Assembly (NCBI GenBank): GCA_022385805.1
Contig: MU277722.1
Coordinates: 1-64,000 of the forward strand
DNA: 64,000 nt
From: Pilatotrama ljubarskyi
Lineage: Eukaryota > Basidiomycota > Agaricomycetes > Polyporales > Polyporaceae
Direction: 5' to 3'
This document shows positions 26,359 through 55,767 of this stretch, in pieces. The position numbers and the translations under genes are program-made. Below the pieces are notes generated by a model that saw only the letters and a program-made list of their open reading frames with translations, did no database searches and was not told where the DNA came from. Numbering within the stretch: position 1 is the stretch's first letter; the number at the start of each line of letters is the position of its first letter.

Positions 26359-28261
26359 ATGTCTACCTCAGCGGTGGACCGCGTACTCAGTATACCGCAT
26401 CTTCTAGGACACGTCTTGGAGATCTTTGCGCCGGAGTGGTCGGATGACCGCATCGGCTTGATCATTGAGCAAGAAAAGCGGAATAGGGCGTGTCGCAGGA
26501 ATCTGGCCAGGCTCGCGCGCGTGAACAAGACGTTTTCAGAGACGGCCCTCGGAGTCCTGTGGCGCAATTTGGACGACCTAGCGGTTTTGTTACGCGTTCT
26601 ACCGTCCTTCAAATCCGGTCGGCACTGGGTGAGTCGTAGCAAACTCAGCACTGCGGCCTGTCCTTCGATCGGGCTTCGTGCTGTGCCTCCTCTCTCTGGC
26701 TGACCCAACACGCTGTGCGGTTCAAATCACAGGAAATGTTGGAACATGTCACGCAACCAGACTGGGTCCGCTTCCAGGAGTATGCCAAGCGCGTCCAAGG
26801 CCTCAGGTGGCACTTTGCCCGGAGTCGTCCTGTTCATCGGACCGTATGGATCATGCTGGAGCGCAAGTCCGCCGGCCAGCCCTTGCTGCCGCGTCTCAGG
26901 ACCCTCGCTCTAATGTCCCTGCGCGTCAACGACCCGGTGACCTTGACGGTTTTGCTTGCGCCCTCTGTCCGCAACCTCAGGCTATCGTTCGAGGACGGAC
27001 TAACCATGCCGGAGGACCTAACCCATACAAGGCTGTCACCTGTAGGGATCCTCTTGCAACTCGCCATCGAGGCGGTTCCACAGCTCTCTACGCTCCACAT
27101 CGAGTCTGGTCTACCGAAGCAGATGCCAACTCTACCCTATTTCTCGCCACTAGTCCACTTGAACGGCCTGGAGAAGCTCGACCTCTTGTACTCTGGGGCT
27201 GTGGTCGACTATCAGACTCTCCAGCTGTTCTCCCACATACCCTCCCTCCGCAACCTGCTAGTCCAGCTTTCTCTTGCTGACGCTGGGCAAGCAGACGACC
27301 TCCGTTTTGGCGAGGCTTTCGAGCGGCTTGGAGAGCTTCATCTCTCGGGAAGCATATACGAGATCCGCCGGGTGATCCAAGCGAGCAATTTCCTCAACCT
27401 GACCAGTTTTGCGCTCTCCGTATCGATAGCTAATACGATAGAAGATCTCAAGGACGCACTCGCTGCTATTTGCAACAGAATGCCCCAATCCATAGACGAT
27501 GCAAATCTATTTTGCTCTGCAGCGATCTCTTCCCCAGCTATGTCTCTAGCGGAAATCCTCCGGCCCTATCTCTCGTTCGACAAGTTGGGAACTATGGACG
27601 TCGAGTTCGACAACTATGTCCCACGGGTGGACGACCACGACTGCCTGGCCTTTGCTCGCGCGTGGCCGAGTCTCACACGCTTCCATCTTTCCTGTTGGAT
27701 GCCCGAAACCCACCGGCGACGCCCGGATCCCCCGCCCCAGCCCACCGTCCTGGGCCTCGCTGAATTTGCACGGCATTGTCCTCGGCTGGATCTGCTCACT
27801 TTGCCCTATCTGGACGTCTGGACGCTCCCGTCTCCGCGCTCGGTCCCGCGAAGTGGGCAGGAAGCACTACGGCACTTGCAGATCGCGGAGTATCTCGGTG
27901 GCGAGACAGCAAACCTCTTGGACCTCGCGCTGATCCTGGACCTCCTGTTCCCTCGTCTGGGGTGCGAACGTTCGGTCACTCTGCAATCAAGATCGGGCTT
28001 CACTATTCCGACGCACAGACGTCCCGTCGAGATGACGTACAACTTGCTGGGCGCAATGGCGGCGCGTAGAAGGCTGGACGATGAAGGTTCTGCTGCGGGA
28101 GATGCAGACGAATCTCGTGGGCGATCGGGAGCTCACAATGCTGATGAGATGGACGAGGACGAGGTGCGCTGTTGATTCCTCGTTTTAATTGGCCGATGTG
28201 CCGTGACTGACCAAGTCTTGAATAGTACGCCGATGAGGACTCCGACGACGTTATAGAGTAG
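26359..28261 (+). CDS. F-box-like/LRR protein, intact copy A
   Basis: Three exons (26359-26628, 26733-28163, 28226-28261) give 578 residues, with all junctions in phase. The N-terminus is an F-box-like helix set ('IPHLLGHVLEIFAPEW', then 'LARVNKTFSETALGVLWRNLDDLAVLLRVLP'), the form seen in the large Agaricomycete F-box-like family. The remainder is a degenerate leucine-rich array: 'LLPRLRTLALMSLRV', 'APSVRNLRLSFED', 'HLNGLEKLDLLYSGAVVD', 'FERLGELHLSGSI'. An acidic tail follows (DEMDEDEYADEDSDDVIE). By family it would bind Skp1 in an SCF ubiquitin ligase and present a substrate through the LRR surface. The target is unknown. It heads a cluster of paralogs and is used here as the intact reference for the broken copies. 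Confidence 0.87.
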
Positions 28262-28281
28262 CCGGCTAGTCCGAGCTCCGC

Positions 28282-29502
28282 ATGAACAGGGGCCTAGCAT
28301 GTCCGCCTCGTCACCTCGCATCACTCGGGCAGCTAAAGCAGCTGCGAGTTCTCGACTCGCGGGCCAGCGGGGCTTTGGTCGACCATCCTGCCGTACGAAA
28401 CATTTCGCGTATCCCCTCCCTTCGCGTCCTTCGAGTCGATGTCTCTCTAGGAGTGACGAGTCCTCTTAGTGCTTAAGACCTGGGCAGGGAATTTATCATG
28501 CTGGATGACCCGGACAGACCTGAGCGGATCCTTCGGCGACATCCGCGCCTTGCTCCGGGCCTGCCACTTTCCCCAGTTGTCCAACCTCGACGCATCGACT
28601 ACGGACGACTCAGCGGCGGTTGGCGAGCTCATCGATGTTGTCAATGATATCTCTATAAGGCTATAAGGCTGTCCAGGTCCCGATACATCTCTACGATCGC
28701 GCTGTCCATCCTCACCGCTGTTCTCGGCCCTATCCTTCCTCTGGCGGATATCCTACGGCGGCTTCTCGCTTGCACCGGCCAGGGGCTCAGTTCGTTTAGC
28801 CTGAAGTTCAGCAACTACACGCCGCATCTGGGCGACCAGGGCTTGCAGGCCTTCGCAGATGCGTGGCCGGCCCTTACAGAGCTTGAACTCGGATCTCTGT
28901 GCTTCCACTCGGGGCGATACCAACGTCCACCTGCCCTTCGCTTGCAACACCCGACGCTCAGAGGCCTGGTCGAATTCACGCAGCGATGTCCCTGCATCCA
29001 GAGTCTCTCCTTCCCGGTACTCGACGTTGTCGGCTCTCGCGGACCACATGGTGTGCTGGAGTGGGCCGTGGCCCGCGCGATGTCGCCGTCCGGTCGCAAT
29101 CGCCTCTTGTCGTTGTCCATACACGAGCTCATGGGCGAGCGCCTCGTTGACCTCAAGAAGGTCGTGGCCGTACTTGCTCGTTTCGTCCCCAACCTGAAGA
29201 CCTGTGGCGGAGTCGTGCTCCTCAGCAATCCCGCCTCGGGGTCAACTACGAACTTGGGTCTCGGTGCTGCCAATGGAACTGCACTGTCATCGGGCCGTCA
29301 AGCGATGAAAATGGTCGTCCTCCTTATGGGAGCTATCAAAGCGCGCAGGGCCTACAATCAAATGGAGGATTCTATGCGCTCATCTTCTGCAGGACGGTCT
29401 CTAGCCGTAGCACAGCGTCACGGGAAGAAAGCGAGGGCAGGATTGTCACGGTACGTAGCCTGCGCTCGAGTCCGAGTCCACGGTGCCTATCTGCGATGCT
29501 GA
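28282..29502 (+). pseudogene. F-box/LRR copy B, 5'-truncated and frame-broken
   Basis: It begins only about 20 bp after the stop of copy A and matches its second half. 'RHLASLGQLKQLRVLD' corresponds to the A segment around 'PLVHLNGLEKLDLL'. 'DLSGSFGDIRALLRAC' matches 'HLSGSIYEIRRVIQAS', and 'LADILRRLLACTGQGLSSF' matches 'LAEILRPYLSFDKLGTM'. It ends with the shared 'LVEFTQRCPCIQSLSFPVLDV' type segment. The F-box exon and the first LRRs are absent. Three different reading frames and stop codons (near 28.47 and 28.66 kb) are needed to follow the homology. This is a tandem, partial duplicate that cannot make a full protein. A truncated product from an internal ATG at 28843 (219 residues) is conceivable but unlikely. 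Confidence 0.78.
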
Positions 29503-30271: not shown

Positions 30272-32277
30272 ATGACTGTACACCCCGGTGCCCAAATTGC
30301 AGCGTCACCAGAGCTCCTGTCTCTCATCTTCAGTCACTTCACACTGCCTTCGATAGACCAGGATGTGGGTGCCCCAGATAAAACGTGGCGCAGATACCGC
30401 AGGTACGCGAAGGCGCTCCGCACGTCTGCCCAGGCGTGCAAGGCGTTCTCGGAGCCGGCACTCGCAGTGCTCTGGCGGCGCCTCGACCTCATCTCACCGT
30501 CTTGCGTCTCCTGCCCGGGTGGGACGACATCGGAGGAATCGGCTACGACGAGGCACTGCTACATACTCCACTCCCTCCTCAGTGTCCAGAAAGCCAATCC
30601 TTCGAAACGCAGGTCATAAAGGACGAAATCAAAGACGACGCATGGGCGCGCGTCCGCTGGTATGCGCGCTTCGTCAAAATGCTCGACCAGAACTCCTGGG
30701 ACTGGATCCACCCGTACACCTGGACCGTCCTCGCGGAGCGGTGCGGCCGCGAGCCACTCCTCCCCAACCTCGAGACGCTCGCCGCTCTCCCGCTCAGCGC
30801 GCGCAACCCCGCCGTCATGCTGCTCATCTCCCCCACCCTTCGCGACCTCAAGGTCGTACTCCGCGACGGGCCGGTGCGCGAAGACACTCTGGTCGCGGCG
30901 ATGCTCATCCGGAGGATCACCGCGACCGCGCGCGGGTTACGGGCGCTCCACGTCAAGAACGACATGGAAGTGAGGGCGCCGGGCTACATCCGCGCGTTCG
31001 CGGAGTTGCGCGAGTTGCGGACGCTCATCCTGGACAAGCTCTTCCTGAGCGAGAGCGACCTGCGCGCGCTCGCCGGGTGCCCGCATCTGACGACGCTCAC
31101 GACTATGGTCGACTTGAGCGTGTTCACCCCGCCGTTCTACGACTTCAACGCGGGAGGAGGACAGTGAAGATGGGGAAAACAGTGCGCATAAGGAGATGCG
31201 GGAAAAGGTACAACATGGGATGGTGATGGAGTCAGATGATGAGCCTGAAGAAGACGAGTGCGAAGTGATCGGAGCGGACGAAGTTATTGGACAGAATGAC
31301 GAAGATGTCGAAATCGTCGACAACGCAGAGGAAGAGGAGGAAGAGGATCCTGATGCAACCAAGGACGACTGGGAACCACTTAAGCTGCGCCCACTGCCCC
31401 CCGGATTCCCCGCCCTCAAGCATCTCTCCCTCATCGGTCTAGTAGCCCACCTCGACCTTGTCCTTCAATCCCGACCGCCCCAACTGTCCACGCTCTCCTT
31501 AGAGATCTTGGGAGGCTCTTCCCTTGAATCTCTGAGTACCGCGCTCGCATCCATCTTCTCCAATCTTCCCATCACCCTCTCCAGCTTCTCGCTCGAGAAC
31601 AAAAAGACGTTCACCGACAACCGCGACTCGTCCAGGGGCGAAGACGAGGGGGAAGACCCAGGCTACCGGCTGTTTGACCTCATCGAACCGCGCTCGCCCG
31701 CTTCCCCCAGCTGAACAGCATCAGCCTCGAGTTCGCACAGCTCCCAGCTGTGAGCGACGACCACATCGACCAGATGCTCCGCGCCTGGCCGCACCTCGCC
31801 TCTTTCCGCCTCCCGCACAGCCCCACCGTGCCCCCTCACTATTTCTCCTCCCGCAACGCATGCTAAACCCGCGCGGAGCCGCACCGCTCCACGCACGTCG
31901 CGCTCATGCTCTTCGCAGCGTTCGCGCCCAAGCTCGAGACGCTCGTTCTCCCCGAGCTCGAGTTCGCGGGTCTCCCGCTCCGCGTGCCCGTGCGCACCGC
32001 CGCAGCGGGGCACGTCCTGCGCACGCTCGCGTTCGACCTCTTCTCCAGCAGCGGGTAGTCTGTCGCGCGGATGCACGAGATCGCGATCATCGTGGATTTG
32101 CTGTACCCGGAGATCGAGCTGGACATGGAGCGCGACAAGGAGCCGCCGGAGCCGGAACCGGGGTCGTATGATAGCGTCGTTAGGCGCACGCTGAGGGTGA
32201 GCGCGTGTCATAAGCTGAGAAGGTACATTGCTGCTCTGCAGTCGGGGGAAGAGCGGGGGAAGAGCTTGAACAGTTAG
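30272..32277 (+). pseudogene. F-box/LRR copy C, several frameshifts and a stop
   Basis: An F-box-like N-terminus is clear ('SPELLSLIFSHFTLPSI', 'AQACKAFSEPALAVLWRRLD'). Immediately after LWRRLD the homology jumps to another frame ('LTVLRLLPGWDDIGG'), which carries the first LRRs ('LLPNLETLAALPLSARN', 'SPTLRDLKVVLRDG') to about 31150. It then shifts to a frame with a long acidic insert (REEDSEDGEN..., EEEEEEDPD) and more LRRs ('PALKHLSLIGLVAHL'). A third shift near 31.7 kb leads to 'FPQLNSISLEFAQLPAV', and a fourth near 31.87 kb leads to 'FAPKLETLVLPELEFAGLPL'. A TAG follows at about 32.06 kb, before the final 'HEIAIIVDLLYPEIELDME'. None of these shifts can be explained by a GT-AG intron at that point. 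Local GC content is very high and creates long shadow frames. Confidence 0.8.
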
Positions 32278-32447: not shown

Positions 32448-34419
32448 TCACATGTATTGTGGGAGGCTTGAAGCCGCACGCTTGCGCACGGTTTCTCGGT
32501 CCTCCTGCTCGTGACCTAACACGTCTCCGGTAGCGACGACCTGCAACACATCTCAGCACGGCAATGTGGAAGGACACCACCCGTATACTCTCACATCGAC
32601 GAAGTCCTCAGTGAGGCCTACTTCAGCCATCGTCCTCGGCTCAACCTCCTCCAGCAAGCCAGCCTGCCATCGCCCAGCCTGCATGCACATGAGGTACTCC
32701 AGGACCGGTGTCCACTTGGTCTCGTCACGACGGAACGACGGCGGGAGCTCCAAAAAGGGGAAGAGCCGATCTAAGAGGAGCGCAACGTCGTACTTCCACT
32801 GACCGTTGTCGCCCTTCCGCTTGATTCTTCTGCCTTCAAGGTCACAGTCGGCGGCCTGCCAAGGATCGAGCAACAGTCTTCTAAGTTTATGGTGACCTCC
32901 GGGCGAGGATAGCTTCTCGCAGAGCCTGCCCGCCATCGCGACGTCCGTCTGCGGCAGCTCGAGCCACCGGAGCCCCGGGTACCGCGTCCCAATCGTCACC
33001 AGCGCGTTCAAAGTGGGCCGGCGCAACGGGCCGTCGGACGTCGACGCATCGGACCTGCGCCCCACATCTATGCGGAGCTCGGCGAGCGCGGGCCACGCCG
33101 CGAGCATCCGCTCGATGCTCGCGTCATCCACGGGAGGCAGGTACACCAGGTCCACGACGACTCTCTGGAGGGCGCGCATGTTCTTCAGCGCGGGCTCAAG
33201 CAGCCTGAGGAGTGCGTCGGGCGGATCTGGAGGGTTGGTTGTTTCAAACCAGTACAGGCTCTGCTGCCGCGCGCTCGTGAGCTCGAGGCTCGTGAGTGTG
33301 TGGGGAACGTTCCGGAGGACAGTGGTGACGCATTTGAGGAAGTCCAAGGGCTCGCGGTCTCTGACGAGCTGCAGCGCGAGCGACTCGAGCAGCGGCATCG
33401 AGGAGGCCGAGAAGAAGAGGGCGAAGTGGTCCCCGCAACCACTCAGGGAGACGTGCTTCAGCGTCGGGAAAGTGCCAAAGTGCAGGTCGGCAGTCGGACG
33501 GTTTTCCGCGTCGAAAGGGAGTCCCAGAGACGCGGAGAGGTACTCGAGCGACTCCATTCTGCTGAGCTGTATCAGGGCGGTGGTCTCCAGGATGCACTCC
33601 TTGTCAATCGCTAGGTGACGCAAGCCCCGGAAGGCGCCCACAAGGGTTGGCAAGATCTGAACCACCTCGTATCGGGTGATCGCATGGGTGATTGCATCCT
33701 CGATCTCGAGGCTGAGATGCTCGAGGCACGGGGAGATCGAGTGGAGCGCTTTGACGCCTTCGATGGCGATTTGGCAACCTCCCCGAGTGGCCTCGGCGGT
33801 GAACGTGATGGAGAGGCGGCGAAGCCCAGGCGACAAGAGCGCCGTCTCGATCAGAGGGCCCACCCTGCATGGGAGGACGGTGAGCCTGCGCAAGTATCGT
33901 AGTCTAGGAAAGAGCGGCGCGCCGCCGGCCCTTCTGGAGAGCCGCGTGAAGAGATCGATTTCGTAGTTTGACCATCGGGAGGACGTGCAGTGGTGGAGGA
34001 CGCGCACGCGACGTGCGTAGCGTTGGAAGCGCTCCCACTCATCTTCGTCGACCTCCACGTTGGAGTCCTGTTGGATCAGACGTGAACGGTTCAGTAATGC
34101 AATGAAGTCTGAATCAAAAGCGCAGTCGACTCACGCAGTCACGGTACTGTTCATTTCGCGCTTTCGGAACCAGCATGAGGAGAGGTAGCAGATCATCAAG
34201 CCGCATCCATAGAACGTCTAGAGCGGGCTCCGAGAGAGCCTTGCAGGTGAGGGCGCAGTGTAAAAGTGTGAGTCGCAAGCGCAGTCTCGTAGCTTCTACT
34301 CGTGGCTGAAACCCCGGGTGCTCTTGGAACATCTCCACAAGGGTCATAGGGGCGAGATGCTCGAATACATTCGCGGCGATTTCTTGACAGTAGAGTGCTC
34401 GGTGTGCCACTGTAGCCAT
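32448..34419 (-). CDS. F-box-like/LRR protein, intact copy D
   Basis: Three exons (34135-34419, 32595-34067, 32448-32540) encode 616 residues with consistent phases. The introns are 67 nt and 54 nt. The N-terminus has 'CQEIAANVFEHLAPM' and 'CKALSEPALDVLWMRLDDLL', the F-box-like pair. After 'EWERFQRYARRVRVLHH' comes the LRR array ('LFPRLRYLRRLTVLP', 'SPGLRRLSITFT', 'FPTLKHVSLSGCGD', 'AWPALAELRIDVG') and a C-terminal helix block ('VALLLDRLFPFLELPP'). The predicted role is an SCF substrate adaptor with unknown target. Its start is shared almost word for word with copy E (QEIAANVFE), so D and E are close paralogs. It is divergent from CHL1 with a 463-bp spacer. The last exon is inferred from a good donor (GTGAGA) and acceptor (TTGCAG). 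Without it the frame stops at 32553. Confidence 0.86.
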
Positions 34420-39258: not shown

Positions 39259-40993
39259 TCAATTCTGAACAAGCATATCGTACTCATACGAACGAGGCTG
39301 GAGTGTCGGTGCCGAGACACCCGTACTATGGCGCGCGGCTCGACATCCTTGAACAGTGCGACGTGAGCGCGACCAACGTATGCACATGAGGAACTGTTGC
39401 ACTACTACGAAGGCGTCACCCCCGTAGATCAGATCCTCAGGAAGCTGGAGATGTGGGAATAGCCGGTCGATGAGGAGCGCGGCATTGTAAGCCTCCTCCT
39501 CATCCATCGCCTGCGTAGTCAAGTACAGCGTCTTTAGACCATGGCCAGCTGACCGCAACTTCGACGAGAGAGGACGGGCGTTCTTCAGATTTAGCCGCGG
39601 AAGCTCAAAGTCAACAAGCTTCGGAGACTGCGCCGCGATGGTGACAAGCGATTTTGCGGTGGGCCGCCGTGCAGGTTCGGCCTCGTCGCGTTTACTCGTG
39701 CTGAAGGATGCGAAGCTCCGTAAGATTCGGCCACGCAGCAAGCAGCCTTTCCACGTCGTCGTCCTCGACAGAGGGAAGGTATGTGTAGTCGACGACAACT
39801 CTTTTGAGCTCAGTCAGGTTGAGTGCTGCCTCTAGGATCGTGATGAGTCGTTCTGGAGAGGGTCTGCGCCAGGTCGCGAAGGTGAGGTGGTCGTCCTGGA
39901 CTCGTCTGAGCTCGAGGCTCGTCACGGTGTGGGGAACGTTGTCGAAAATTCTCGCGAAGGAGTGCACGAGCATGTCGGGTGGAGGATCTTCAGTGTATTC
40001 CATAGTAAGCTCTGCCAGACGGGGCATTGATACTCCGGAGAAGAAGCTGGCGAGAATCCGTGGAGTAGCGCTCAGGGATGCCTTCTTGAGAGATTGCAAC
40101 CGTGCAATGGGTGCGGGATCGGCTGGGTCCCAGTCCAGGCTCGCAGAGAGGCATTCCAACGAAGTTATGCACCCGAGCTCGACTAGATAGGCACGCCCGA
40201 CCTTGAGGTGCTCGTCAAGGGTGAGATGCTGCAAACGTCGGAGTGGCGGAAGGGATGGGGGAGATACGTGGCCCTGTTCCCAGCCTGCACACTCCAACTG
40301 CAACTGGAGCTGCTCGAGGTGGGGTGCTAAGGAGTGTATCTGCTCGAGGGAAAGAATCGCGACGCGGGGATCCTGGTTGACGACATTGCGAGCAAGGACT
40401 AGTGATGTTCGGCGAAGAGATGGCGACAGGAGCGGCAACTCGAGGATGCCCTTGTCGTCGATATGGAACGACCATACTCGTTCCAATCTCGGAAAGAGCG
40501 GATGTCCATCAGCTCTCTCCAGCAGCGTCGCCCAGAATGCAGAAGGACACTTCGATTCCGGTAGGTACGATCCAGACTCGAGTTCGCGAACGCGGCGATC
40601 AAAGCTCTGGAAGCGTTCCCGTTCCGCCCTTCCGACTGGGTCGTCCAGGGTCTATCGTATGAATTGTGCGTCAGTGACGTCCACCGGCATACGTGGTTAC
40701 AGAAACTTCCACACGATGCTGTGTCCGGTTTTCCCTCCAGTCCAATTAATAGTTTCATCAAGGCGGGCAGGGGAGTCAAGCCGTCGCCATAAGATTGCCA
40801 CGGCGGGCTCCGTGAATGCTTTGCAGGTCCGGGCGAGGTATGCTAATGTTCGCCTCGACGTAAGTATTGATCGCATAGCTGCCCATTCTATCCTGGTATC
40901 CTCCGTGCCTTCAGAGGGAATGAAGGGTACGAAGTTCTCGAAAACGTTCGCTGCGATTTCCTGGCAGAATAGTGCTGCCTGTGCCGCCGACAT
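39259..40993 (-). pseudogene. F-box/LRR copy E, one frameshift in the LRR region
   Basis: The first exon starts at 40993 with 'FCQEIAANVFENFVPF' and 'CKAFTEPAVAILWRRLD', as in copy D. After an intron at about 40.65-40.73 kb the frame carries 'ERFQSFDRRVRELES', 'PLFPRLERVWSFHI', many LRRs and 'LLAAWPNLTELRI', but stops at 39692-39694. The homology (compare copy D 'LAELRIDVG ... RRPTLNALVTIG') continues in a different frame with 'RRPTAKSLVTIAAQSPKLVD' and ends at 39259 after 'AALLIDRLFPHLQLPED'. A splice that would bridge the two frames is possible on paper (GTAAAC to GCGCAG), but it would remove the conserved RRPT block and lands in the wrong phase. The copy is therefore either a young pseudogene or carries a one-base sequence error. 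If functional it would be an SCF adaptor. Confidence 0.72.
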
Positions 40994-41654
40994 GTCGCTT
41001 TCACGTGACCCGCCCCCCGCGACCTCCGGAGCCGGCGTAAGAGCTTGACTTGAAAGTCACTGAAGTTGAAACCTCAGGCGTTCAAGCGTTCATGTTCATC
41101 TTTGGGCATAGCGGAGTACATCGTGCAATGTCGGGAGGAGGCTGTGTATGCGCGAAGTGTTCGCCTGAGTCCGCGTGAAGTCAGACCTTGGCCCCAGAGG
41201 TCGCCGTCGCGTGCTTCGTAGGGCAAGTGTATGACCAACTTCATGAGAAGGTTCATCGGAGTTTGGGGGTAAAATCAGAAGGACAGCAATCTGCTACAGC
41301 TATGATTCACAAGGAGGACCACTTTCGACATTGCGAGTTCGCGTTCGGCCACGTATCCACCCGCTGTGGCCTGATCTTCTCATGAGCGTTGCGACACTTG
41401 TCGGCCTTGGTAGTACAGTCTGTTGTCTCTGTAACGAGTCGAAGTAATGAGCACCAGGACTGGCAGAAGGTAGCCACGCCTCTACTCACTGCGAGACTAC
41501 TTGTTGCAACCTACAGAGCTACGGAAGAATAGGATGATACTCTTCTTTCACGACAACCTGAAGAAGAAACAATTAGCCAGGTCCCGTCAATACACAGTAG
41601 GGATAAAATGTGCGTACCTCTATCATGTGCACTTTGAGATCGACCCGCCGTCCA
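40994..41654. other. intergenic, no supported gene
   Basis: About 660 bp between copies E and F, with short open frames only. It should include the promoter of copy E and the 3' end region of copy F. Confidence 0.4.
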
Positions 41655-43287
41655 TCAGAGGGTAGCCTGAGCGCTCCTCTGAGGGGGGCAAGACTGTTCC
41701 TTGCGCAAACGTTCATGCTCTCGGCCGAGCTGCATCGCTTTCAGGATAGTCTTAATGCGGCCGCCCCTCTCCACATTAGCTGGCAAGAATCCTCGGATGC
41801 CACAGCTATGAAGATTCGGGAAGAGGCGGTCCAGCAAGATAGCCAATTTCCCATCCGACTCATCTTCGCCGACAAGGGAGTCAAACATCAGGTAGGACAG
41901 AGGCATCCGCAGGACTGGAACAGAGTCCGAAGACGGCAGTCGCGACCCAGATATATCCAGGCATGGCAAAGTCAGACTCTCCAGAGAGGGGCAGTGACGT
42001 GCGAGTTCGACCAGTGCTCGGACTGTAGGGCGGTCCGAGGTCGGGGAACCTTCGTCATGTGGTCCAGGGGTCGATGAGGAGATGTGCATCTTCCGTAGCT
42101 TGGGCCACGTTCGCGTGATCTCTCCAATATCGTCGTCTGTGATGCGTAAAGTATCTTTTCTGGCAGAGAGCCGAACGTCACTGAGGTCTTTGAACGATAG
42201 GAAGGGGCGGAGGATCCGGTGGGCCTCAAGCGCGGGAACGGGTGTGTCAAGCGTTGGCAACTCCACTTCCAAGGTCAACATCTCCAGCTGCGGGGGCAGG
42301 TAGTTGCGGACCTGCGAGAGATGGCGGTATATGGTTTCAGGATCTTATTCGGCTTTGAAAGAGAGCCTGAGCGTGCGCAGAACGGGCGGCCGCGCCTCGG
42401 CAAAGAAACGGACGATTTCTTTCGCCGATCCGGTCAAACATAGAGTCGTCAGACTCGAAAACCTGGGTTCGGTATGGAACCATCTGTTTGTATCGGAGTC
42501 GTCGAAATCAGCTGGAAGGATCAACAGCTGGAGGTCCTGAAGGCAGGAGAGCGCGGAAATAGCGGCCGCAGATATCTTGATGGAAGCGCGTGATGGCGAG
42601 ATGTGTAGCGTCCGAAGTCTCCGACAACCGTCGAGGGCGTATAGATGTGTCGATAAGAGAGGGAAGTTGCCTCCGATCTCAAGCTCCGTCAGATTCGGAG
42701 CCGTCTTGACCGCAATAGAGTGGAAGAGATGGGCCGTCCAGAAGTTGTGATAGGAAGGATCCTGGAAGTGCTCTTTCTGGAATCGAATCCTGACGTGGCA
42801 CAGTGTGGGGGAGAGAAGGAGAAGCAAAGTCGGTATATCCGCATGCGAGACACCAGTGGCATCCAACCTTCTAAGGTTCGGCAGTAGAGCTGCGCCGCAA
42901 CACTGCTGCGCGAGCAGTATCCAGATACCGGTTTGTTCTCCTACGCCACTGGGATACTGGAGCTCGCGAACCTTAGCAGCATACCTCTGGAAGGTCGACC
43001 AGCCTGCGCTGATGTCACGAGTGAAGCTATAGGACGGTTGAGACCTGGGCGCAAGCTGCGAGGTCACCCTTGTTCTCGCTGATAGCATCCTCGATGTAAA
43101 GGCAGCCCGCATCAACGGCAAGGTCAACTGTAGTCGCGGAAAATGACTCGAAGATATTTTCGAGTAGTTCCGGGCATTGAAGAACGCGCTCGCTTGCGCT
43201 TGGGTTCTCGGGCGGACTTGGCATGTCCATGGATGGGAGCCGTGTGAGATGCGAAGTGGGAGGTCCCTGTGTATGACTCATTATCAA
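41655..43287 (-). pseudogene. F-box/LRR copy F, in-frame nonsense codon and damaged F-box
   Basis: The N-terminal exon (43287 downward) has 'RVLQCPELLENIFESFSAT' and 'LAACAQVSTV', the first half of an F-box. The expected second half (the CKAFSEPALDVLWRRLDDL type segment) is missing, and the sequence passes within about 40 bp to 'GWSTFQRYAAKVRELQYP', suggesting a deletion across the F-box/intron junction. The LRR frame then runs cleanly to 'LRTLRLSFKAE', meets TAA at 42345-42347, and continues in the same frame ('DPETIYRHLSQVRNYLPPQ') to a natural stop at 41655. A single point change explains the stop. No intron can remove it, because there is no GT donor just upstream. The last part has 'PKLRKMHISSSTPG', 'CPSLESLTLPCLDISGS' and 'LAILLDRLFPNLHSCG'. 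Confidence 0.8.
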
Positions 43288-52572: not shown

Positions 52573-53119
52573 ATGCTTGGAACTCTGCCCGGGGCATCGA
52601 GGCGTGTCTTCCAATGTCGGGATGTAGTAGCCGAGATACTCGAGCACCTTGCCCCAGGTTGGCCCAGGGAAGGGTCCCGCAAACCGGAGGAACGAGAGCG
52701 ACAGAGGAGCACGCGGTTCCGTACCCTGGCATCCGCGGCGCTTGTCTGCAAACTGTTTTCAGAGCTGGCTCTCGACGTGCTCTGGCGCGTCCTCGACGAC
52801 GTGGACGTGTTGCTGAGGGTGTTTCCATCCTTGAAGGAACACCGTAGCTACGGCACCACCGTCGTAAGGCGTCTGCCTATTCCAGTCGATCATCTGAATT
52901 GATCCGCTACTGTGCAGCTCGTACTGGATGAAGTCGCCCTCGAGCACTGGTCCCGATTCCAACAGTATGCCAAGCGTGTCCGAGCGCTCAGGAGTGTTGA
53001 CTCTCTGCCTCGCGTCCACGCATCAGTGTGGACGTTACTGGAAAGCCTGTGCGAGGCAACACCATTGCTGCCGAATCTGCGTCGCCTCAAGATGGGCATG
53101 TCAATTCAAAACCCGGCCG

Positions 53120-53129
53120 GGTATATGAT
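53120..53129 (+). repeat. left target-site duplication
   Basis: GGTATATGAT, identical to 54046-54055. It marks the left edge of the insertion in F-box copy G. Confidence 0.75.
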
Positions 53130-54045
53130 AGTCTCCGTTGCCGCCCCTTAAAGATATAGATGACAGTCGATACATTTTCTATAAGGGTCTGCTCTTCTAC
53201 GCGCTGTTTACCCGACCTTTGGGGACGGACTCTGCTTTTCGGCGCTAAAACAGTTCGTGAACCAATGAGAGTGCTCGGACAGTCAGCAGACCTACGTGCT
53301 TTTGGCCCTAGAGTGTTTGGGAACCAATGAGAGTCTTCTCGCAGTCAGCAGACTTACGTGCAGGTCGGTCATGGGGATTTGTCACATCGAGGAGGGGTAC
53401 AATCTGGAGACTGCAACGGAAATAGTACACCGGCAAAGACAGTCAGTCTACACTTTTGCGAGGCGAGGATACCGCTGCAGCCACCGAAGACACTGCACCT
53501 CACTGTTCAACTTGAAAGCCCCCAGAACGTAGCTCATCGTAGTCCCTGGCTCCCGGCTGACTCACATGTGGACTCACTGTTTGTGGCAAGTTCTGGCGCA
53601 GGGGCGAGAAGCTCTTCCATCAACAAGTAAGGTGAAGTCATGCTATCAACATCCTCACTCCAACGCACCCGCCTTCGCCAACATCGTTATCCGATGGGGT
53701 ACAGCCCTATCAATGTGAGCATTGTGCTGTATACAAGTACCGGGACCATCAAGCTGATAGTCATGGGGCACCAAAGACATTTCATGGTATAATATTCTGG
53801 ACTACAGTAGGACTCAGCCACAAGACAAACTGAAGAGTAACCTTTCGGCTCGGCTGCCACTGTTAGATAGGACGTGTTACACTCACGACGCACGGGCAGT
53901 GGATGCGACGACTGGAGTGCCCAGCGCTTCTGCGCCACGCGTTGTTGACGACTGTTGACGCGTCACCCCTTTAGCGCCATGCATGTGACCTGGCAATTGC
54001 CGAGCCCCCAAAGGTGGGGGAAATCGTTCCGAGAGATAAAGACTA
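53129..54045. mobile_element. 0.9-kb non-autonomous DNA-transposon-like insertion (MULE-like)
   Basis: The insert sits inside the LRR frame of F-box copy G. It is bounded by a direct repeat of GGTATATGAT (53120-53129 and 54046-54055), of which one copy is the original codon text. With a 9-bp duplication the ends become TAGTCT...AGACTA, a short terminal inverted repeat. Subterminal inverted repeats ACCTTTGGGG (53215-53224) and CCCCAAAGGT (54006-54015) and a 62-bp internal direct repeat also occur. No transposase is encoded, so it would have been moved in trans. A 9-10 bp duplication suits Mutator-like elements best, while hAT (8 bp) is less likely. The class is inferred and not proven. Confidence 0.75.
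53258..53361 (+). repeat. direct repeat inside the insertion, 62-bp period
   Basis: Two copies of a roughly 42-bp unit (53258-53299 and 53320-53361) share GAACCAATGAGAG and CAGTCAGCAGAC, with a few differences. They are spaced 62 bp apart. Such subterminal repeats are common transposase-binding arrays in non-autonomous elements. Confidence 0.7.
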
Positions 54046-54055
54046 GGTATATGAT
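54046..54055 (+). repeat. right target-site duplication
   Basis: GGTATATGAT, identical to 53120-53129. It marks the right edge. The AG just before position 54047 could serve as a splice acceptor. Confidence 0.75.
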
Positions 54056-55767
54056 GCTGCTATCACCTTCTCTGCGTAACCTACAGGTGACCTTCCACCA
54101 CAGCTGGGGCAGATCTTGGCGCGAGGCAATCAACGAGCAACGGGTGGCTCCGGCTGCTGGCGTACTGCTTCAGCTCATCATCTATAAGGTCCCTGAATTG
54201 ACCACACTTCATGTTGAAGACGGCCTCGAAGGGCTGCCTCCTCGGCACCTCAAGTCTCTCGCAAACCTCAAGAAGCTAGAGAACCTGAACTTGATGTTCT
54301 CGGGCGCTGTCGTTGACTATGCGACCGTGCATCTCCTGTCTCACGGGCCTCCCCTGTGGTCCCTGGACTTGACGCTTTCCACGGATTTCACGGAGAGAAT
54401 ACCGGATTCTCCTCCAGGCGAAGCTTTCCGCAACCTCCGGACACTCAGCCTCAGCGGGAGGTCCAGACACATCACCCGCTTGCTCAATGCCATCCCATAC
54501 GACTCTCGCCGAAATCTATCTGACCTTCTCGGATGCTCCTGATCCTTTGACCTGGCGAAACAGGTTGTCTTCAATCCTGGCTAGGGTCCCGAAAACGCTC
54601 AGACACTTCAACTTCTGCTTGGAGAAGAACCTACCTCCGCCCATACGGCGCCTCGCCGATCTCTTCGAACCATGTCTCGCCTTCCCTGACATCACCGCCT
54701 TCGAGCTCGAACTGTTTACGAACACCCCGCACGTCTCCGATGCAGACCTACTGCAGTTCGCCACCGCTTGGCCGAAGCTCCGGTTCTTCAGCGTATCTCA
54801 CGAGTTACTGGTCGCTCACCCCCGCACAACGATACGGACCGCGCAGCAAGCCCGTCCCACTCTGAACAGTCTGATCAACCTTGCGCAGCTCTGCCCCTCT
54901 CTGTATAGCCTCTACATCCCCACGATCGACGTCAGCACGATCCCTTCGAAAGACTCGGTGCCCGTCGTTCGTCAAACGGCTCTGCGGAATCTGCAGGTCA
55001 GGGAGTTGCATGGGGGTCGCATTGCGAACCTCTTGGACGTCGCGGTCATCATCAATATGCTGTTCCCGAGGGTCGAGACGCACCGATCTGTCGTGTACGC
55101 GGAGCAGACGATATCGACCCGCCCGTACCCACCGCCGTCGGAGAGCCGGACGAACCCTTGGGGTCTGACGAGGGTGCTTCTTTCAGCGATGCAGGCTCGG
55201 CGTGAGCAGGAAGAGCTCGACTCGCCCCGAGCAGCGTCGCCGTCATCTTCTCTGGATGAGGATGAGGACGAGGAGTTCGTGGAGAACATGAGCATCGTGT
55301 CGGATGCGGAGGCCATGGATCATATGGCGGACATACAGGTCGGGGAGGATTTGGAGGGCGGGGACGGCGGGGAGAATCTGGAGGAGATGGAGGACATGCA
55401 GAACGTACTTCACATTCCAGCTTTCGGTGCCGCCGCCTGGCTAAGGGAGAAAACCATGGACAGGATATCGAGGGGTCGGAGCACTCATCCCTGGAAGAGC
55501 TGACGGAGTGATGGGCGTTCGGTGGGTGTTCGAGTCCTCCGAGTCGAGACAAGCAATGTCCTTGCGGCTCCCGTTCGAGCGGTTGTGCGCCCGCTTGCTG
55601 GTATGTTATGGGAACACGCAGCCATACTCCTCCATCCTTCTCATCCTCAGGTGCATGTAGGATCCGCAGCAGACGCTCCGCGCGTACCATACCCACTCAC
55701 GTTTCACCACGCTCGCCAGAATCCAGATAGCAATACAGAAGCAGCGACTCGGCGTAATACTGGTACA

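Follow-up and report, generated by a model that had tools for sequence, protein, structure and literature searches.

The locus lies within a window consisting of the whole 64-kb stretch analyzed here, i.e., positions 1 to 64,000 of contig C53 in the Pilatotrama ljubarskyi assembly (33.1 Mb, 173 contigs) used for all genome searches. A predicted F-box/LRR-like gene occupies one part of this window and is interrupted within its second exon by a 917-bp DNA transposon (Table 1). The homologue used to trace the gene, P0002, is a 556-amino-acid protein of Trametes cingulata, named partial, which aligns in three blocks with identities of 61, 67, and 73% and is continuous across the insertion site. 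In the protein search, the 3' part of the gene matched, beside itself, only Trametes cingulata. The Pfam hits of P0002 to an LRR model (E 0.0005, 20.2 bits) and an F-box-like model (E 0.011, 16 bits) both fall below the curated cut-offs, and the F-box/LRR label of the gene is consequently weak and putative. Paralogous F-box/LRR-like pieces were located in the window by tblastn at 26368-28163, 28270-29403, 30374-32118, 33888-34407, 40475-43001, and 52573-55503, some of them with internal stops, consistent with a local, partly decayed gene family. Searched against the genome, the first part of the gene (52573-53119) hit only its own locus, so that neither a second allele nor a close DNA paralogue was found.

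Table 1. Features of the interrupted gene and of the inserted element (positions are those of the window)
Feature	Position	Strand	Basis or remark
Exon 1	52573..52863	+	Aligns to P0002 from P0002 residue 7
Intron, 54 nt, GTAAGG...TGTGCAG, in-frame stop inside	52864..52917	+	Gap in P0002 alignment; predicted
Exon 2 up to the insertion, including left duplication copy	52918..53128	+	P0002 alignment
Left target duplication copy, GGTATATGA	53120..53128	.	9 bp; supplies GT at 53121-53122
DNA transposon, non-coding, 917 bp	53129..54045	+	TAGTCT/AGACTA ends, 6-bp inverted repeat, six genome copies, no long frame
Left-end hairpin region	53145..53187	+	Folding versus shuffles
Subterminal inverted repeat, left arm, TTTACCCGACCTTTGGGG, 18 bp	53207..53224	.	
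Direct repeats, two of 47 bp each, 83% identical, within the element	53253..53361	+	
Subterminal inverted repeat, right arm, 18 bp	54006..54023	.	
Right target duplication copy	54046..54054	.	The terminal A of the element and the first G of this copy form AG at 54045-54046
Gene after the insertion, frame ending TGA 54540-54542	54055..54542	+	P0002 alignment
Open frame with the gene's 3' part after the frameshift	54487..55503	+	338 codons from first ATG
Frameshift	54502..54506	+	P0002 homology changes frame; no GT..AG intron there by eye

As assembled, the gene is damaged twice, by the insertion and by a frameshift approximately 450 nt downstream of it. Translation of exon 2 into the element runs into a TAA at 53149-53151, 23 nt beyond the junction. 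Splicing out the element would leave the frame ending at 54540-54542 all the same, with the loss of approximately 240 residues present in P0002. An intron across the frameshift was considered and rejected, as inspection by eye revealed no GT...AG and homology to P0002 reaches both sides. The frameshift itself may be an artifact of sequencing or assembly. Because of the stop in the element and the frameshift further on, the gene is most likely a pseudogene.

The sequence GGTATATGAT occurs twice in the window, at 53120-53129 and 54046-54055 (spacing of 926 nt), and the earlier note on this DNA had described it as a 10-bp duplication around 0.9 kb of foreign DNA. The duplication is real, but comparison of the borders of the copies places the start of the element at the T of TAGTCT at 53129, leaving a duplication of 9 bp (GGTATATGA) and a tenth base (T, 54055) that matches by chance; the 10-bp reading was rejected. 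The 0.9 kb is indeed foreign to the gene: P0002 is uninterrupted, and a paralogue in the window (approximately 26368-28163) has its exon 2 and exon 3 matches only 12 nt apart. GT and AG also lie where they had been reported, and deletion of 53121-54046 leaves a single copy of the duplication. With the correction of 1 bp, the observation of an insertion, its duplication, and the GT/AG positions is confirmed, and its interpretation as a transposon that entered an F-box/LRR-like gene and duplicated the target is supported.

A genome-wide search for the 917-bp element and its TAGTCT ends, which the earlier note had proposed, returned long near-identical copies at six places (C53, i.e., the window, C7, C24, C54, C34, and C13), diverging by K2P 0.003 to 0.019 over shared parts. 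Both ends are present in five of the six, each with its own perfect 9-bp duplication, and all five duplications differ; in element orientation, they are GGTATATGA (C53), CATATTAAG (C7), CATCCGCGT (C24), GTCGGGACT (C34), and GGTGTGTCA (C54). The C13 copy is cut by a contig end, so that the duplication count for the 917-bp family rests on the other five, and the C34 copy contains 620 N inside the element. Two copies harbor further insertions. The C54 copy (about 63550-71648) is split by approximately 8.1 kb of inserted DNA, by eye CACTA/EnSpm-like, whose inverted ends read CACTGGGTGGAAGGACCTC and whose duplication is 3 bp long (ACT), and the C24 copy contains a nested insertion of approximately 1.14 kb (362-1500 of the stretch read) with CAC... 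ends and a TA site, mariner-like in appearance. The 917-bp element is itself an ordinary non-autonomous transposon in which a long reading frame is absent.

DUF6589 (PF20231) is a Pfam family of unknown function that occurs in many mushroom-forming fungi. The genome contains 17 DUF6589 matches at eight loci, and both ends and a duplication could be closed at three of these (C38a, C16, and C38b). The C38a element (7,859 bp, TAGTCT...AGACTA, duplication GCCCAAGCC) encodes a protein matching DUF6589 with an E value of 1.4e-57 for one stretch, and over its leftmost 95 bp it shares 77% identity with the window element. Both have a perfect inverted repeat of 6 bp at their ends, and C38a also has an inverted match near both ends, like the subterminal repeat of the window element. 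The C16 element (6,301 bp) has a 98-bp perfect inverted repeat and the duplication GGTGACTGA, and the C38b element (6,181 bp) has an inverted repeat of 126 bp at 90% and the duplication GAGC(T/C)GGGC, with one mismatch. Among the other DUF6589 loci, C158 has a left end only and runs to the contig end, C123 has an inverted-repeat remnant only, and C64, C25, and C112 have no ends within the stretch read. TAGTCT...AGACTA ends are common to the window element, C38a, C16, and C38b, and 9-bp duplications flank five of the six copies of the 917-bp family and the three DUF6589 elements (one with 1 mismatch). Having no DUF6589 frame, the 917-bp element could belong to this proposed TAGTCT/9-bp DUF6589 group only as a non-autonomous member, linked to it through its ends. 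Folding against shuffled sequences supports a left-end hairpin clearly in C38a and C158 (none of 300 shuffles scored as low) and modestly in the C7, C34, C54, and C13 copies (p = 0.017 to 0.043), but the window copy did not reach significance (p = 0.43), and no strong claim is made for the hairpin.

AlphaFold models of DUF6589 resemble DDE transposases (P element, Hermes, and ISCth4), with no Foldseek match reaching significance and unrelated chains among the top ranks. Residues D59, D220, and E473 (P0059 numbering) are conserved in DUF6589. VIA-align was run on the second DUF6589 model only and covers the families listed there. Searching PDB sequences with the DUF6589 alignment gave no hit, and none of the DUF6589 proteins scanned against Pfam matched a KDZ or Plavaka model. 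DUF6589 is probably the transposase of the TAGTCT/9-bp group.

Mutator-like elements have 9- to 11-bp duplications, long inverted repeats, and non-autonomous derivatives. The group described here is like them in its 9-bp duplication, in the long inverted repeats of C16 and C38b, and in having non-autonomous derivatives, but it carries DUF6589, and the perfect inverted repeat is only 6 bp in the window element and C38a. Furthermore, PF10551 (MULE) gave no match at E<=0.001 in this genome, whereas the same search gives matches in three of 14 control genomes, and a MULE transposase was rejected as the partner. hAT and the P element generate target duplications of 8 bp. The 9-bp duplications and TAGTCT ends distinguish the present group from P element/hAT (Hermes), and identity between DUF6589 and the transposases of these elements is 9 to 10%. 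KDZ (Kyakuja-Dileera-Zisupton) and Plavaka are, like this group, DNA transposons of Agaricomycetes, but their duplications are given as 8 bp (Zisupton) or 2 to 3 bp (Plavaka) in the part of the source available (PMC12730594), versus 9 bp here. No paper on DUF6589 or the TAGTCT/9-bp group was found in the literature searched; the group may already bear a different name in Repbase, bioRxiv, or subscription journals. Our judgment is evenly divided on the wider proposal that DUF6589 would be a DDE transposase of a superfamily absent from that literature, with TAGTCT ends, a 9-bp duplication, and a P-element/hAT-like catalytic fold, spreading small non-autonomous elements (917 bp and possibly left-end fragments of 45 to 67 bp) that are able to land flush with splice-site sequence at GGT targets.

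We are highly confident in the account of the locus according to which a recently moved non-autonomous cut-and-paste transposon broke an F-box/LRR-like gene, the mover being probably the DUF6589 protein of larger relatives and the GT...AG a by-product. On this account, DUF6589 from the larger relatives elsewhere in the genome would mobilize the 917-bp element in trans, a staggered target cut would give rise to the 9-bp duplication, and the element, without coding capacity, would thereby be placed inside exon 2, with a transcript that is presumably not usefully spliced.

Twenty other places matching the left end were read. Eight contain left-end fragments of 45 to 67 bp flanked by matching 9-mers (C29, C60, C59, C23, C99, C52, C46, and C76); four of these duplications match at 9/9 positions and four at 8/9, each of the latter with a p value of 0.007 to 0.010 against random flank 9-mers (approximately 0.2 expected in twenty trials). 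No convincing duplication was found at C112, C41, C21, C1, and C55, while C89, C5, C11, C25, C49, and C36 have little in common beyond a 15-base pattern, and C100 is doubtful. The hairpin was not significant in 10 of 11 short fragments folded, with p<0.05 only for C60. The C76 fragment (1501-1555, 55 bp, duplication GGCCAGCTC) lies inside an open frame that is, by eye, 2OG oxygenase-like. The short fragments might be independent minimal transposons rather than products of full-length elements, as a duplication matching at 8 or 9 of 9 positions beside a 45- to 67-bp fragment at eight of 20 places would suggest, together with right-end searches that returned only long copies. However, the fragments have neither the right end nor the subterminal repeat, and inspection by eye places the ends of six of the eight within the 3' arm of the left hairpin, as would fit stalled copying followed by end joining. 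Independent transposition is possible but unlikely, and the best guess is that these fragments are remnants of interrupted repair after excision.

The earlier note had pointed to the GT and AG at the borders and described the insertion as resembling a ready-made intron, its actual splicing being offered as an inference. That idea was reasonable because introners with duplication-derived splice sites are established in other eukaryotes, according to PMC9860276. The flush GT/AG exists because the duplication starts with GGT and the element ends in A. With these ends, some flush GT...AG would be given by 5.5% of the 9-mers in the 64-kb window (both strands) and 5.1% of those within the exons of the gene, and 1.4% of 9-mers in the window begin with GGT. 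A flush GT...AG is possible at three (C53, C54, and C16) of the eight delimited large elements, i.e., five 917-bp copies and three DUF6589 elements, and all three duplications begin with GGT. This proportion is above expectation, perhaps reflecting a target preference, and since three of eight duplications begin with GGT versus 1.4% of 9-mers, the flush GT...AG is possibly less accidental than the figure of 5.5% suggests. The longest frame spanning the empty site, with frames taken by length alone, is 237 codons at C53 and 71 to 142 codons in the other seven large elements, including 89 and 91 codons at the GGT sites C54 and C16, respectively. A splice-site pair permitting clean removal of the insertion is present in the window copy, but only one of the eight large elements interrupts a long frame, and copies forming introns in different genes were not found among them.

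If the insertion were spliced as a 926-nt intron (53121-54046), the transposon would have made a new intron, and the gene could have stayed usable for some time. The flush GT...AG does restore the reading frame, and PMC9860276 describes introners in which the duplication provides all or part of the splice sites. Nevertheless, the acceptor is weak, as the earlier note had recognized: no CTNAY branch motif occurs in the last 60 nt, and pyrimidines make up 36% of the 25 nt before AG, compared with 60% for the gene's own intron, whose length of 54 nt the candidate intron, at 926 nt, also far exceeds. Exact splicing would still truncate the protein because of the frameshift near 54502-54506. The weak acceptor, this downstream frameshift, and the 5.5% chance of some flush GT...AG leave neither a working intron nor membership in an introner family supported, and splicing of the insertion is improbable.

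The window element resembles introners, as described in PMC9860276 and PMC4457414, in being a non-autonomous DNA transposon with a duplication from which splice sites could be drawn; unlike them, it is a single candidate, with a poor acceptor and a frameshifted host gene, and the other large copies lie outside long open frames. That the family consists of introners, of which copies or 45- to 67-bp left-end fragments repeatedly create introns, is very improbable: short fragments plus 9 bp would be intron-sized and, by eye in the minority of short sites looked at, the C55 fragment lies inside an apparent intron and the C76 fragment inside an open frame, but among the eight delimited large elements only C53 has a spanning frame of >142 codons, the C52 fragment lies, by eye, upstream of an ATG, and the C76 duplication begins with GGC, giving no flush GT...AG, with a fragment that adds an in-frame stop. 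The intron-like appearance of the window element is most likely a coincidence, or a by-product of a duplication starting with GGT.

The result that merits follow-up is that DUF6589 occurs together with TAGTCT ends and 9-bp duplications and has models resembling transposases. A domain of unknown function present in many mushroom genomes would thereby acquire a concrete and testable role, and those annotating fungal genomes would have an additional means of recognizing mobile DNA. In the window element, a target duplication imitates an intron, a clean case that suggests caution for claims of intron gain that are made from genome sequence alone.
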